A stretch of DNA of 64,000 nucleotides, from contig NC_022538.1 of the NCBI RefSeq assembly GCF_000968055.1, positions 1,027,499-1,091,498 on the forward strand. Reading direction: 5' to 3'. The notes under the pieces were generated by a model. That model had not been told where the DNA came from, made no database searches, and saw only the letters and a program-made list of their open reading frames with translations. Position numbers and translations under genes: made by a program. This DNA comes from Alteracholeplasma palmae J233 (GTDB lineage: Bacteria > Bacillota_I > Bacilli_A > Acholeplasmatales > Acholeplasmataceae). This document shows positions 27,518 through 64,000 of this stretch, one piece after another; the stretch's first letter is position 1; every line of letters starts with the position of its first letter.

Positions 27518-28255
27518 TTACAGTAGGTACGTATTATGATCTTCTTTTTCTATTTTAATATTTTGTTTGACGCTAGTATAAATAATTTGTGTATTCCTTA
27601 TCATAAATTCTAGCAATATTCCTATCATATCAGTATCTAATCCATCATATAAATTATCGAATAACATGAGACTATAAGTATCATTTAATGAATCTAAAAT
27701 TTTAGTTACCTTAATTTTAGAAGATTGTTCCTCGTTTTCATATTTATAAATAAACTTCCAGTTAGTGAGTACATCAAAGATTGCACTAAATAGATCGTTA
27801 TCTTTAGTATGTCTTAAAAAAGGTAATATAAGTCTTTTTTCATCCAGTTTGATCAGTTCTAAGTACTTTTTAATATCCCCTGTGACTTGCTTACCTAATT
27901 TTATACTAGATTCATTTTTAACATATATATCTTTAAAATATGAATCGTATTGTCCACTTAACCTTTCGTATATAATACTATTATTTTGAATTCTATATTC
28001 ATATTGAAACTTCTTTTCATTAATAATAAAACTAATTTCATAAATGAATACTTCATTATAATTACTAATGTATTCTAAGTTTTTTGAAGTAACTTCTCCT
28101 TTTATAAAATTATTTATTTCTTCTAAACATCTAAGAATAGTTGTTTTACCCGAATTGTTATTTCCTATAATCTCTAAAGTAGGGTAATTGCCTAATTTTA
28201 AAAGAATATCTTCTTTAAAGTATTTTACATTCTTTATTTTTATTGTCTCTATCAT
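27518..28255 (-). CDS. AAA-type ATPase of duplicated cassette, copy 1
   Basis: The 245-residue protein resembles the ATPase cores of OLD/AbiEii-like AAA proteins. It has Walker A GNNNSGKTT (about 31-39), a helical middle with the strongly conserved ERLSGQYDSYFKDIY, and Walker B-like LMLFDNLYDGLD. The usual catalytic Glu after the Walker B Asp is Asn. ATG 28255 (MIETIKIKN) is chosen because AAAGGG lies 9 bases before it and the same start is used by copy 2; ATG 28264 directly abuts the binding site. It follows the small membrane protein. It is about 60% identical by eye to 60937-61668, highest in the first 160 residues. No TOPRIM or nuclease domain is present. Function unknown. Confidence 0.75.
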   Translation of the reverse strand: MIETIKIKNVKYFKEDILLKLGNYPTLEIIGNNNSGKTTILRCLEEINNFIKGEVTSKNLEYISNYNEVFIYEISFIINEKKFQYEYRIQNNSIIYERLSGQYDSYFKDIYVKNESSIKLGKQVTGDIKKYLELIKLDEKRLILPFLRHTKDNDLFSAIFDVLTNWKFIYKYENEEQSSKIKVTKILDSLNDTYSLMLFDNLYDGLDTDMIGILLEFMIRNTQIIYTSVKQNIKIEKEDHNTYLL

Positions 28256-28303: not shown

Positions 28304-28597
28304 TTAACTATCTAACTTTTCACACGCATCACTTGATGTGATATCTTCCTTTTCAGCAATTTGATCTTTTTCATTTTTTATGCTTTTTTCTCTTATTTCA
28401 CCATATACTAATCCAACTATTAATCCACAAGTGATACTAAGTATTAAAAATAATATAATATATAATGCTGGTAACTTATAACCTTCATAATAGAGTCCTA
28501 TTGATAATAAAACCATTGAGGGCGGGTATAATAATCCAACAACAGAAATAACCATATTTTTATCTATATTTATTTTAATTTTCATTTTTAACCACAC
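28304..28597 (-). CDS. Small two-helix membrane protein of duplicated cassette, copy 1
   Basis: The 97-residue protein has helices at about 15-37 and 43-65 and an acidic cytoplasmic tail ending EDITSSDACEKLDS. Over the first 70 residues it is nearly identical to the protein at 61807-62025. Start GTG 28597 follows AGAGGGATGGA; that block is conserved in copy 2, although ATG 28585 is also possible. It comes just before the ATPase, with 48 bases between them, so both are probably one transcript. No known family is recognised; it could be the membrane effector or anchor of the ATPase. Confidence 0.68.
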   Translation of the reverse strand: MWLKMKIKINIDKNMVISVVGLLYPPSMVLLSIGLYYEGYKLPALYIILFLILSITCGLIVGLVYGEIREKSIKNEKDQIAEKEDITSSDACEKLDS

Positions 28598-29033
28598 TCC
28601 ATCCCTCTAGTAATCTGATTTATAAAAAAAATTCTATACTCTTTTAAAGCAATTAACTCTTTTTTTGTCTTAAAAAACTTTTTGGAGTATGCTTTTATAG
28701 TTTATAAACTTTATCAATAAAGTAATCAATATTTTATTAAGTAGCAAATCTTTAGATTGTAACTAGAATCAATTTTTATGCTTTTTATACTTATTTTGAA
28801 TTCATTTTTTAATACTAAATTGCACTTTTATGCAAATATCTTATAAATCTTATCTTTTTATAGTGGCTGTTCTATCATTTTCTGTTAAATTATCATGGCT
28901 GTTGCTACCATTTATTTCAAGCTTTTTTCATTTATCTTTTATATGAATACTGATACAGGTATCAAAATTCATAAAAAAAGGAAATAGAAAATATTAGGTT
29001 AAAGTTTGTTATTTTATACTTTATATTGCTTCG
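28598..29033 (-). other. Long leader region of cassette copy 1
   Basis: No gene of convincing quality is seen in these 436 bases. It contains the GATAC...GTATC palindrome (28951-28964) and a possible secondary promoter with TTGATA at 28960-28965 and TATAAA at 28938-28943 on the minus strand, 16 bases apart. A direct repeat, TGGCTGTT, occurs at about 28864 and 28896. Patches align with the leader of copy 2. Confidence 0.5.
28951..28964. promoter_or_regulatory. Conserved palindrome TGATAC-AG-GTATCA in leader, copy 1
   Basis: Six-base arms with a 2-base spacer, followed by AAAAT. The matching site in copy 2 is GGATAC-GT-GTATCA followed by AAAAT. Its overlap with a TTGATA -35-like box suggests an operator. 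Confidence 0.45.
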
Positions 29034-29049
29034 TAAAGGTACACCTTTA
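29034..29049. repeat. Inversion site A of copy 1
   Basis: TAAAGGT-AC-ACCTTTA: 7-bp inverted arms around an asymmetric central dinucleotide, the design of a serine-recombinase crossover site. Imperfect symmetry extends to 26 bp (CTTCG...TGAAG). It is the exact inverse of site B at 29158. Confidence 0.75.
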
Positions 29050-29157
29050 TGAAGGTATCTTTTTGTCTATAAATGCTTTTTTTGGGTATTGTTTTTGTCT
29101 TTTTTCTATTAAATATGTTAGAATATAGACACATAGTCTGTTATTTTATCTATTTTA
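29050..29157 (+). promoter_or_regulatory. Invertible promoter segment of copy 1, OFF orientation
   Basis: This 108-bp segment lies between inverted sites. It carries an extended -10 TATGTTAGAAT (29115-29124; hexamer 29119-29124) and a TTGTCT-like -35 at about 29095, reading rightward, away from the cassette genes. The same features appear in copy 2 only on the opposite strand. An internal inverted repeat TGTCTATA/TATAGACA is also present. Confidence 0.7.
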
Positions 29158-29173
29158 TAAAGGTGTACCTTTA
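29158..29173. repeat. Inversion site B of copy 1
   Basis: TAAAGGT-GT-ACCTTTA, with flanks TTTTA and TAAAA that extend the symmetry to 26 bp with only the central GT asymmetric. Its centre is 124 bp from that of site A. Confidence 0.75.
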
Positions 29174-29222
29174 TAAAAATAAGAAAATTTGGTATTGTTT
29201 AGGAATAAAATCAAATAAAAAA

Positions 29223-29261
29223 ATGAGTATAAATCCCCTTTAAAAGGAAATCTATACTCAT
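29223..29261. terminator. Bidirectional terminator next to inversion site B, end of rluD
   Basis: ATGAGTATA (29223-29231) pairs with TATACTCAT (29253-29261), extended by A-run and T-run. It ends rluD and would also stop transcripts from the rightward promoter of the copy 1 switch. Confidence 0.75.
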
Positions 29262-29263
29262 TT

Positions 29264-30166
29264 TTATATTTCTTCGTTTTCTATTTTTTTCAATACTTCT
29301 TTAAAGTTATCTGGAACATCAACTTCAAAAGTTACTAAGTCATTAGTTATAGGATGATTAAATGATAGTTTTCTAGCATGTAAATATTGTCCAGAAGACC
29401 CATATACTTTTTTAGGTCCATATATTGGATCACCTAAAATAGGATGTCCAATATAAGCTAAATGCACTCTGATTTGATGTGTTCTCCCCGTTTCTAGGAA
29501 ACACCTAATAAGTGAATAGCCTTTATATCTTTCAATTGTTTCAAAATGAGTAATTGCATCTTTACCATCATGCGTAACACTCATTTTTAGTCTATTGACT
29601 TTATGTCTACCAATTGGAGCATCTATCTTACCCTTATCTTCAATGTGTCCATAAATAATTGCGATATATTCTCTTTTAACATCATGAACTTTTAAATCTT
29701 CTGATAATTTTTTATGTGCTTTATCCGTTTTAGCTACTACTAAAAGCCCACTTGTATCTTTATCTATTCTATGAACAATCCCTGGTCGATATGTCCCATT
29801 GATATCACTTAAATCATCTATTTCATGTAAAAGTCCATGAACTAAGGTAGGTTCATTATAGCTACTAGCCGGATGAACAACTAACCCTTGAGGTTTATTA
29901 ACTACTAGAATATCTGAATCCTCATAAACGATATCTAGTTTTAAATCTACAGGTTTTAACTCTAGTGTTTTAACCTCTGGAATAATAACTGTTATAAGAT
30001 CATCTAACTTTAAGATATATCCTGTTTTTTCTTTTTTATCATTAATAAGAATATGTTCTTCTTTAATTAATTGTTGAATTCTACTTCTTGTTAAATCTAG
30101 ATTTTGAGTTAAATAGTGATCAAGTCGTTGCCCAATATCATCTGTTGTTATTTTAAATTGCTTCAT
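29264..30166 (-). CDS. rluD: Ribosomal large subunit pseudouridine synthase, RluD family
   Basis: The 300-residue protein has an N-terminal S4 RNA-binding domain (residues 1-70) and the RluA/RluD catalytic domain with HRIDKDTSGLLVVAKTD, which holds the catalytic Asp, and RTHQIRVHLAYIGHPILGD. It isomerises uridines in 23S rRNA; the exact sites are not decided by sequence. It overlaps the end of lspA by 14 bases, as in other Firmicutes-type operons. Confidence 0.9.
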   Translation of the reverse strand: MKQFKITTDDIGQRLDHYLTQNLDLTRSRIQQLIKEEHILINDKKEKTGYILKLDDLITVIIPEVKTLELKPVDLKLDIVYEDSDILVVNKPQGLVVHPASSYNEPTLVHGLLHEIDDLSDINGTYRPGIVHRIDKDTSGLLVVAKTDKAHKKLSEDLKVHDVKREYIAIIYGHIEDKGKIDAPIGRHKVNRLKMSVTHDGKDAITHFETIERYKGYSLIRCFLETGRTHQIRVHLAYIGHPILGDPIYGPKKVYGSSGQYLHARKLSFNHPITNDLVTFEVDVPDNFKEVLKKIENEEI

Positions 30167-60936: not shown

Positions 60937-61668
60937 TTATATACTAAGTTCTTGTAATAGATAAGTATTATCTTCTAGTTTTTCTAGTTTAATATTTTGA
61001 TTAACGGTAGTGTAGATGACTTGTTTATTTGTTTTTACAATTTTATCTAATAAATAGGTAATTGTTTGTTCATCCAGTCTATTATATAAATCATCTAACA
61101 ATAATACTTCGCACGATGAATCAAGTAAATCTAATATCTCATTTGCCTTTGCTTTATATGTATAGACAAATTTACAATTAGTAATTTTATTTAATATAAT
61201 ACTAAATAGATCATTATCTTTAGTGTATTGCAATAGAGGCAAAAGTAGTTTTGTTTCTTCTAAATTAATGAGTTCCAAATATTTTTTTATATCCCCAATT
61301 ACTTGTTTTCCCAATTTTAAATTAGAGCCATTTTTTATATAGATGTCTTTAAAATAAGAGTCATATTGACCACTTAATCTTTCATAAACAACTTTTGATG
61401 CTAATACTCTAAATTCATATTGGAATTTTTTTTCATTAAGTATAAAGCTAAGTTCATAAGTAAATATTTCTTTATGATTAATATAGTTTAAGTCTTTAGA
61501 AGTAATGTCACCTCTAATGAAGCACACTATTTCTTCTAGACTTTTAAGTATCGTTGTTTTTCCTGTGTTGTTATTACCAATAATCTCTAATGTTTTGTAG
61601 CTACCTAATTTTAGAGTAATAGGTTCTTGAAAATATTTGATATTACTTATTTTTATTGTTTCTATCAT
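60937..61668 (-). CDS. AAA-type ATPase of duplicated cassette, copy 2
   Basis: The 243-residue paralogue of 27518-28255 has Walker A GNNNTGKTT and a Walker B-like VLLLDDLYNRLDEQT, in which the residue after the first Asp is Asp rather than Glu. The block ERLSGQYDSYFKDIY and GDIKKYLELI is identical or nearly so in both copies, while the C-terminal third differs more. The copy 2 product lacks about 10 residues before the Walker B strand. AAAGGG lies 9 bases before ATG 61668. It is the second gene of the copy 2 cassette. Function unknown; related ATPases occur in OLD-like defence proteins. Confidence 0.75.
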   Translation of the reverse strand: MIETIKISNIKYFQEPITLKLGSYKTLEIIGNNNTGKTTILKSLEEIVCFIRGDITSKDLNYINHKEIFTYELSFILNEKKFQYEFRVLASKVVYERLSGQYDSYFKDIYIKNGSNLKLGKQVIGDIKKYLELINLEETKLLLPLLQYTKDNDLFSIILNKITNCKFVYTYKAKANEILDLLDSSCEVLLLDDLYNRLDEQTITYLLDKIVKTNKQVIYTTVNQNIKLEKLEDNTYLLQELSI

Positions 61669-61806
61669 TTAATCATCCCTTTTAAATTTTATCTTATTCC
61701 TATTTTTATTTTGAATTTTTTAATACTTTTTATATCTATCTAGGCTTATGACTAGCATCTTTTGTCAAGCTATCCTCGTTTTCATTAACTTTATCTCTTT
61801 TACTTT

Positions 61807-62025
61807 TTAAGTTTTTTCTTTTATTTCACCATATACTATTCCAACTATTAATCCACAAGTTATACTAAGTATTAAAAATAATATGATGCACAGTGCAGGT
61901 AATATATAACCTTCAAGGTATAACCCTATTGATAATAAAACCATTGAGGGTGGATATAATAATCCTACAACAGATATAACCATATTCTTGTCTATATTTA
62001 TTTTGATCTTCATTTTCAGAAACAC
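61807..62025 (-). CDS. Small two-helix membrane protein of duplicated cassette, copy 2, tail frameshifted
   Basis: GTG 62025 follows AGAGGATGGA, as in copy 1, and gives 72 residues with two helices nearly identical to copy 1. After GEIKEK the frame ends at TAA 61807. One more A in the A6 run at 61812-61817 would extend it by about 25 residues (LKSKRDKVNENEDS...) to a stop at 61736, matching the acidic tail of copy 1. The tail is therefore truncated in this copy, or the run length varies. Confidence 0.65.
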   Translation of the reverse strand: MFLKMKIKINIDKNMVISVVGLLYPPSMVLLSIGLYLEGYILPALCIILFLILSITCGLIVGIVYGEIKEKT

Positions 62026-62483
62026 TCCATCCTCTATTTCCAAGTTTGCAATAATTAAATTTTCCTAATCTTTTAATATTATTTGCTCTTTTTGTGCGCG
62101 TAACCATTGTGAAGTATGTGCCCTTATTTATGATTCATCTGGTAAAATATTCAATCTTTTGTTTCATTAAGAATGACTATATTAGATAGATTATCTAGAC
62201 TATATTTAAATCGATTTTAAGCATTTTATATAGTATTTTTTCATAATTAATTTTATGATTTTTAATGCTAAATAGTCAATTTATACGAAAAATAACAAAT
62301 TTTATTATTTGTGCTTATTTTTTATTCAGACTATCATTACATGTTTGTGGCTAATTACTAGTATTTTTTATTTTATACTTCTAATAAATATGGATACGTG
62401 TATCAAAATAAATGCCAAAAGTATAATTTTAGAGCTTAACATCCAGTTCAGTTTTCTTTGTGCTTAACAGTTTATATTACTCA
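62026..62483 (-). other. Long leader region of cassette copy 2
   Basis: These 458 bases lie between the promoter switch and the membrane protein gene. They contain the GGATAC-GT-GTATCA palindrome at 62392 and AT-rich patches that align with the leader of copy 1. A 64-codon frame overlapping the membrane gene is not conserved in copy 1 and is not called. Confidence 0.5.
62392..62405. promoter_or_regulatory. Conserved palindrome GGATAC-GT-GTATCA in leader, copy 2
   Basis: Counterpart of 28951-28964, with the same GTATCAAAAT flank. A minus-strand TTGATA overlaps it, as in copy 1. Confidence 0.45.
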
Positions 62484-62499
62484 TAAAGGTACACCTTTA
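62484..62499. repeat. Inversion site A of copy 2
   Basis: TAAAGGT-AC-ACCTTTA, identical to site A of copy 1. Confidence 0.75.
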
Positions 62500-62607
62500 T
62501 AAATTAAATTTTAAAAAGGATTATACACGTCTATTTTAGCATATTTAGAGAAAAAAGGCTTGTATTATCAATCAAATGTATCAATTCTAGACATTTTTAA
62601 AGCATTA
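62500..62607 (-). promoter_or_regulatory. Invertible promoter segment of copy 2, ON orientation
   Basis: The segment is 108 bp, as in copy 1. Its reverse complement aligns with copy 1 in the same register: GTCTA at offset 16, CTTTTTTCT at about 50, and AAATATGnTAnAATA at 62-76. The extended -10 TATGCTAAAAT (hexamer 62533-62538) therefore reads leftward, toward the cassette genes. Confidence 0.72.
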
Positions 62608-62623
62608 TAAAGGTGTACCTTTA
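62608..62623. repeat. Inversion site B of copy 2
   Basis: TAAAGGT-GT-ACCTTTA, identical to site B of copy 1 and 124 bp centre to centre from site A. Confidence 0.75.
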
Positions 62624-62665: not shown

Positions 62666-62685
62666 ATACTATTTTTCAAGTATAT

Positions 62686-62694
62686 TGATATAAT
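62686..62694 (+). promoter_or_regulatory. Extended -10 promoter of the recombinase gene
   Basis: TGATATAAT matches TGnTATAAT exactly, 31 bases before the start. No strong -35 is seen. Confidence 0.55.
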
Positions 62695-62725: not shown

Positions 62726-63313
62726 ATGCGCTACGGTTATGTTAGAGTTTCAACAATCACACAAAACATCGACAGACAATATGAAGAAATGCTAAGGCAA
62801 GGCTTAAGTGCTAAACAAATTATTATTGATAAGCAAAGTGGGAAAGACTTTGAGAGAAAAAATTATCAAAATTTAAGAAAAAAACTTAAGAAAAATGATT
62901 TACTACTAATCCACTCCATTGACAGATTAGGTAGAAATTATGATATGATCATTGAAGAATGGCATTATATTACAAAAGTTATTGAAGCGGATATCAAAGT
63001 ACTTGATATGCCCTTACTAGACACTAGAAATGATGCCAATAATTTGGTTGGTAAGTTTATAAGTGATATTGTTTTACAAATTTTATCGTTTGTTGCGGAA
63101 ACTGAAAGAAAAAATATTAAACAGCGTCAAGCTGAAGGAATAAAAATAGCTAAAGAAAAAGGCGTCCACATGGGGCGCCCTAAATATGTACTTCCTAATA
63201 ATTTTAAGAAAGTAGTTAAGAAGTATAAGAATAATGAATTAACTGTTTCTCAAGCTTTGCAAATACTTGATATGAAATACTCTACTTTTTTAAAGTATTC
63301 TAAAGATATCTAG
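62726..63313 (+). CDS. Serine recombinase (resolvase/invertase family)
   Basis: The 195-residue protein begins MRYGYVRVSTITQNIDRQ with the nucleophilic Ser in YVRVS. It has the conserved Arg segment HSIDRLGRNYDMI, the E-helix region FVAETERKNIKQRQAEG, and a C-terminal HTH (LTVSQALQILDMKYSTFLKY). Length and layout match small DNA invertases and resolvases. ATG 62726 is chosen because AAAGGAA is 5 bases before it; GTG 62705 lacks a site. It lies 102 bases from inversion site B of copy 2 and is the natural enzyme for both switches. Confidence 0.88.
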   Translation: MRYGYVRVSTITQNIDRQYEEMLRQGLSAKQIIIDKQSGKDFERKNYQNLRKKLKKNDLLLIHSIDRLGRNYDMIIEEWHYITKVIEADIKVLDMPLLDTRNDANNLVGKFISDIVLQILSFVAETERKNIKQRQAEGIKIAKEKGVHMGRPKYVLPNNFKKVVKKYKNNELTVSQALQILDMKYSTFLKYSKDI

Positions 63314-63319
63314 TGCTTT

Positions 63320-63961
63320 TTATACGTATGCTTGAACTCCATCTTTTAGATCCTTTTTTTCATTTATTATTATAATAAAAATGAAGTTTAACAATAGGAC
63401 TAGACAGCCTAAAATATAAGCAAGAATTATTTCTTCATTATAAACGTTATCCTTATAGAAATCCATAGCTTCAAATGCGATACCTGCATCTACTGCCATT
63501 AAAAACCAAACTGTAACTTTCAAAAATTTATTTATATTTTTTATATTTGATTCTGCAAAATAGAAAAAAGAAATCACTATAGAGTATAGAAAGATTGTTT
63601 TATTAAATATATTTATGATTTCAAAAAAAGTAAGATTTGTTTCTATATTCTTATTATAGTTTAGTGTGTAAAAACAAACGCTTATACCAATCACAGTTGA
63701 TATATATATTAAGTATTCTAGAATAAATGTTAGCATAATCTTAATTTTACTATAAGGAATAAAAATCATTTTTGATTTTCTTAAATATAATTTAAATGCA
63801 ATATTTAAAACTATAAAAATATTTATAGATAAAATGACAATTTTTGCAATATCGTGTGGCATAAAATACGTTCCAATCATAACTAATAGCGAAGTCGATA
63901 TAATACTATAAGTGTATTTATTAAAAATCTTACTTAGATTATAGTTTAGAATTTTTAGCAT
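63320..63961 (-). CDS. Six-helix membrane protein, possibly an ABC-2-like permease
   Basis: The 213-residue protein has about six hydrophobic helices and basic loops (KLYLRKSKMIF), with no recognised motif. AAGGAG precedes the ATG. Its start overlaps the end of another frame entering from the window edge, suggesting an operon. Small ABC-2 permeases have this shape, but the assignment is an inference. It is convergent with the recombinase gene. Confidence 0.55.
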   Translation of the reverse strand: MLKILNYNLSKIFNKYTYSIISTSLLVMIGTYFMPHDIAKIVILSINIFIVLNIAFKLYLRKSKMIFIPYSKIKIMLTFILEYLIYISTVIGISVCFYTLNYNKNIETNLTFFEIINIFNKTIFLYSIVISFFYFAESNIKNINKFLKVTVWFLMAVDAGIAFEAMDFYKDNVYNEEIILAYILGCLVLLLNFIFIIIINEKKDLKDGVQAYV

Positions 63962-64000
63962 TTTTTATAAAGCTCCTTGTAGTACTGATCAATAGATAGT
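63955..64000 (-). CDS. C-terminal end of an unknown upstream gene
   Basis: Fourteen residues LSIDQYYKELYKKC precede TAA at 63955 and overlap the next start (ATGCTAA). Such tails occur in ABC transporter ATPases, but too little is visible to name it. Confidence 0.35.
   Translation of the reverse strand, partial: LSIDQYYKELYKKC

Follow-up and report, generated by a model that had tools for sequence, protein, structure and literature searches.

A probable invertible promoter switch beside a serine recombinase gene in Alteracholeplasma palmae J233, present in opposite settings at two paralogous loci

A 140-bp element (62484-62623) lies between a serine recombinase gene and a membrane protein/ATPase gene pair in the window, the whole stretch of 64,000 nucleotides analysed here (A. 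palmae J233, a small wall-less bacterium; contig NC_022538.1). The element is very likely a phase-variation switch, in which the recombinase encoded at 62726-63313 flips a promoter on and off for the gene pair and probably flips a second segment at 29 kb as well. An invertible promoter beside a serine recombinase had been proposed in the preliminary description of this DNA. At the level of sequence, that reading is supported by the architecture, the neighbouring gene, the direction of the promoter and a second copy in the opposite orientation.

Crossover sites and promoter of the 62-kb segment

The left crossover site (TAAAGGTACACCTTTA, TAAAGGT-AC-ACCTTTA; 62484-62499, plus strand) and the right one (62608-62623, minus strand) are exact matches in inverse orientation, the right being the reverse complement of the left. 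Each site has 7-bp inverted arms around a 2-bp asymmetric centre, AC in the left site and GT in its partner, and the two enclose 108 bp (62500-62607), as had been described. The inverted repeat is actually longer than the 16 bp first given, since TAA/TTA is added on the inner side, making 19 bp with 100% complementarity (62484-62502/62605-62623). As in a serine-invertase promoter switch, the sites are inverse and carry an asymmetric 2-bp centre within a dyad. Across the single 1,554,229-bp contig of the genome, the exact 16-bp site occurs four times, and the copies form two pairs, each with 124-bp spacing. Such a pair was found in 0/60 windows simulated with the same dinucleotide composition and twice in the real window, so the pairs are beyond chance. 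An Rfam search gave no match.

The segment contains an extended -10 element, TATGCTAAAAT (TATG-C-TAAAAT; 62533-62543, hexamer 62533-62538), on the minus strand. It reads left into the cassette, as first reported, and stands at the same offset as its counterpart at 29114-29124. The -35 is poor, and the extended -10 is located approximately 510 nt upstream of the membrane protein's start codon. The pattern TRTGNTANAAT occurs 13 times in the 64 kb (both strands), and two of these occurrences are the promoters of the two segments. Judged solely by promoter direction, the 62-kb cassette would be ON.

Between segment and genes, each cassette leader holds a dyad: GATACGTGTATC plus AAAAT at 62393-62409 and GATACAGGTATC plus AAAAT at 28952-28968. 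The shared pattern, GATACNNGTATCAAAAT, is found in the genome only at these two places, and the dyad is a possible operator of some regulator. Given the leader of approximately 510 nt and the conserved dyad, the cassette may be under a second control.

A second copy in the opposite setting

The second site pair (29034-29173), absent from the preliminary description, lies 33 kb away, upstream of a paralogous cassette. Its left (29034-29049, plus strand) and right (29158-29173, minus strand) sites match the 62-kb sites exactly and enclose 29050-29157. Outside the sites, the flanks of both loci are collinear and align in the same direction. The inner 108 bp align only as reverse complement, with a score of 78 vs 33.6 ± 7.6 (0/3000 dinucleotide shuffles as high), and in the same direction their score is at chance level (p 0.46). 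Once the 62-kb copy is turned, the -10 hexamer lies at base 86 of the 140-bp segment at both loci.

The extended -10 at 29 kb, TATGTTAGAAT (29114-29124, plus strand; hexamer 29119-29124, TAGAAT, with TG; -35 TTGTCT, spacer 18), points away from its cassette. Since one promoter points into and the other away from the genes, the 62-kb copy is read as ON and the 29-kb copy as OFF. A strong near-symmetric hairpin at 29219-29265, called as a minus-strand terminator, may stop OFF-state transcripts before rluD. The evidence on orientation consists of opposite settings at two paralogous loci of one genome, with one orientation per locus. With both settings present in one genome, the case is stronger than the preliminary description made it.

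The two inner segments are strongly diverged, so their opposite orientation need not be recent. The switch could once have been active and now be locked, with the two loci long fixed in opposite orientation and the recombinase no longer acting on them; relatives that keep the recombinase with one site left (A. laidlawii, L030:5912; L153, L159, L160) would fit such a history. In an AT-rich background that is diverging, the four sites remain identical to the letter, and the reading frame of the recombinase is open. This argues for continued selection and makes a locked switch quite improbable.

The recombinase and the proposed mechanism

The recombinase gene (62726-63313, plus strand) encodes 195 aa with a resolvase catalytic domain (Pfam Resolvase, E 3e-25), and its product is the likely invertase of both segments. 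The distance of 102 bp given earlier holds when counted from the right site to the ATG at 62726. An extended -10 (TG-A-TATAAT; 62684-62694, hexamer 62689-62694, plus strand), read from the sequence as the likely promoter of the recombinase itself, lies outside the segment, so that expression of the enzyme need not depend on the setting. Beyond the gene, the other strand (63320-64000 and beyond, L005:6819-9225) carries an operon for a GntR-like regulator, an ABC transporter and membrane proteins that seems to have no connection with the switch.

The best NCBIfam match of the recombinase was the Mpi family (PRK13413), with 55.2 bits against a curated cut-off of 272, and membership of that family was therefore rejected. 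The comparison with Mpi drawn in the preliminary description is apt functionally, but it does not extend to family assignment. In the PDB comparison the protein resembles Sin/bin3.

Serine recombinases bind each dyad as a dimer, synapse two sites, cleave at the 2-bp centre and rotate the strands, which gives inversion if the centres are inverse. At the 62-kb locus, recombinase dimers would bind each of the two inverse 16-bp sites. The sites would be synapsed and cut at the 2-bp centre, and strand rotation would invert the 108-bp segment. The promoter would then read either into the cassette (ON, as at present at 62 kb) or in the opposite direction. The 29-kb segment, which has identical sites and would at present be OFF, is probably inverted in trans by this enzyme. 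From the sequences we infer that inversion occurs at both loci, that the sites are recognised by the 62-kb recombinase, for which the tree described below gives support, and that the enzyme also works in trans at 29 kb. Transcription of the cassette is likewise taken to follow the orientation of the segment.

The membrane protein/ATPase cassettes

The 62-kb cassette consists of a 68-aa membrane protein with two probable transmembrane helices (61807-62013, minus strand) and a 243-aa P-loop ATPase (60937-61668, minus strand). It had been given as a unit spanning 62025-60937; the two-gene unit stands, and its likely ATG is at 62013, with 62025 being an upstream in-frame start. The second cassette encodes a 93-aa membrane protein (28304-28585, minus strand) and a 245-aa P-loop ATPase (27518-28255, minus strand). 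Identity between the two copies is 64% for the ATPases and 91% for the shared part of the membrane proteins; the latter have dN 0.05 vs dS 0.57, and both copies are thus under selection. At 61735-61840, a tail like that of the 93-aa copy continues in another frame past the end of the 68-aa protein, with a one-base frame difference.

The P loop of the 62-kb ATPase reads GNNNTGKTT, and the protein matches Pfam AAA_21 (32.9 bits, cut-off 27). Its best PADLOC match was AbiLi, a weak one (49 bits, E 1e-13), and PtuA, GajA and AriA matched more weakly. With these matches, a defence role of the cassette is at most plausible. Assignment to AbiL abortive infection was rejected: the partner is a membrane protein of 68-93 aa with no AbiLii match, and the ATPase is only weakly AbiLi-like. 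A search for close relatives of the cassette covered 160 genomes of the order and 395 of the class together with phages, plasmids and viral contigs, and turned up only the copies in its own genome; for the membrane protein, 392 genomes of the phylum gave the same result. An AlphaFold2 model of the ATPase, built from two sequences, had a mean pLDDT of 39.

A third segment before a DpnII-like operon

The genome has a second recombinase (C1:39102-39671), 68% identical to the 62-kb one and divergent from a DpnII-like restriction-modification operon. The operon is of the DpnII type, as it encodes two adenine methylases (MTase_II, E 7e-97 and E 3e-98) together with a type II endonuclease (REase_II, E 2e-89). 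A third segment of the invertible type (C1:39736-39872; L068:7735-7876) is located between this recombinase and the operon and would be OFF by promoter direction. It has 27-bp inverted repeats (96%) with 125-bp spacing and contains ATAAGGTACACCTTTT. The same arrangement of recombinase, segment and operon is present in two relatives, G004 (L069) and G063 (L063). All three restriction-modification segments have the same orientation and carry TTGAT(T/A/C), a spacer of 17 and TAGGAT plus TG. Since this promoter points away from the operon, the three operons are read as OFF. With 3/3 segments oriented alike, inversion may be rare or biased.

The core AAGGTACACCTT is common to all three segments of the genome. 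With a shared core, the 29-kb segment might be flipped by the recombinase at C1:39102-39671, or both enzymes might act on all three segments. We consider this unlikely, as the 29-kb and 62-kb sites share 16/16 bases and the arms of the restriction-modification sites (ATAAGGTACACCTTTT) differ from them. Control of the 62-kb and 29-kb segments by the 62-kb recombinase remains the preferred reading.

Sites and recombinases in relatives

Paired inverse dyad sites were present beside the gene at 17/44 recombinase loci vs 0/278 control windows; the 44 loci came from named genomes and relatives, and the site motif was partly drawn from those same loci. In a second sample, a paired site was found at 2/48 further recombinase loci. 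A paired site beside the recombinase as a general rule was accordingly withdrawn; the linkage appears to vary between clades, from common to rare. A looser palindrome scan gave no clear separation (6/35 recombinase loci vs 7/145 controls). Viral contigs lacked the site-pair pattern, and in genomes with solo recombinases no pair with the 124-bp type of spacing was found away from the gene.

Where the centre was asymmetric, 13 pairs were inverse and 2 direct, which fits the need of an inversion system. In a tree of 91 recombinases, those bearing AGGT-type sites and those bearing other sites were separated by one change. Each 16-bp near-palindrome is a dyad fit for a dimer, and the pair surrounds a promoter, so the sites might instead be paired operators of a dimeric regulator with no role in recombination. 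Such operators would leave unexplained the consistently inverse centres, the neighbouring recombinases, the tracking of recombinase clade by site type and, at the two A. palmae cassettes, the inverted inner segments between collinear flanks. Paired operators are accordingly regarded as extremely improbable, and the sites continue to be treated here as crossover sites.

A symmetric AT centre (GTATAC) was found at L036, L037, L052, L057 and L059, which should not alone set direction for a serine recombinase. A single AGGTNNACCT site lies near a recombinase that has no segment at L030:5912 (A. laidlawii), L153:1697, L159:2384 and L160:2311; these lone sites are probably remains of a lost switch. 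The preliminary description had proposed comparing related genomes for flipped segments. Opposite orientations were seen between the 62-kb and 29-kb paralogues; the three restriction-modification segments were alike, and L036 and L037, two nearly identical metagenome loci, also had the same orientation.

When the gene beyond the segment was read by eye, it was part of a pair of large proteins, methylase-like plus partner, at L031, L032 and L057, and encoded a very long protein at L036, L052, L059, L070 and L041; others were seen elsewhere. In approximately 14/18 segments, the best promoter-like element is directed away from the target gene beside it (by a rough score, with some of the loci related), a bias suggesting that OFF is the commoner state among sequenced genomes.

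A wider reading is put forward tentatively, as possible but somewhat doubtful. It holds that a subfamily of small serine recombinases, found across Bacillota and Acholeplasmataceae and having a core site of its own (AAGGTACACCTT), flips the promoters of defence-type operons. Here, one enzyme would independently set two paralogous membrane protein/ATPase units of a kind not yet described and possibly anti-phage, and cells would differ in the copy expressed.

Significance and comparison with known systems

A serine invertase governing a restriction-modification operon and two copies of an orphan ATPase/membrane unit would widen the range of phase variation in acholeplasmas to include probable defence genes. 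With two copies in opposite states, the system is simple and open to test; the switch also offers a hint at what the gene pair, otherwise unannotated, does.

Promoter flipping by a serine invertase is already known, Mpi being an example. In Bacteroides fragilis, Mpi is a serine invertase that inverts 13 regions, seven of which are capsule promoters (PMC4747536). Likewise, a small serine recombinase here would flip short promoter segments, some of them distant (probably one near and one distant). The two differ in number, with two or three segments here vs 13 in the genome of Mpi, and in targets, which here are the ATPase/membrane cassette and the restriction-modification operon and for Mpi are capsule loci.

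The sites of Hin, Gin and Cin have a 2-bp asymmetric centre in a dyad, and inverse sites give inversion. The dyad sites described here share that centre, whereas the recombinase is closer in sequence to gamma-delta resolvases and Sin/bin3 than to DNA invertases of solved structure.

The Vpma system uses a Xer-type tyrosine recombinase, and its targets are surface lipoproteins. Here, in contrast, the enzyme is a serine recombinase and the targets are not surface lipoproteins. What the two would share is site-specific inversion that alters expression in a mollicute, in that case M. agalactiae (PMC2268961). In the literature found on promoter inversion in mollicutes, the enzymes were tyrosine recombinases throughout.

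Invertons detected by PhaseFinder and PhaVa are short promoter segments flanked by inverted repeats, and their detection relies on reads that show the two orientations (PMC11868660). The segments described here have the same form, but the evidence for them comes from comparison of paralogues rather than from reads.
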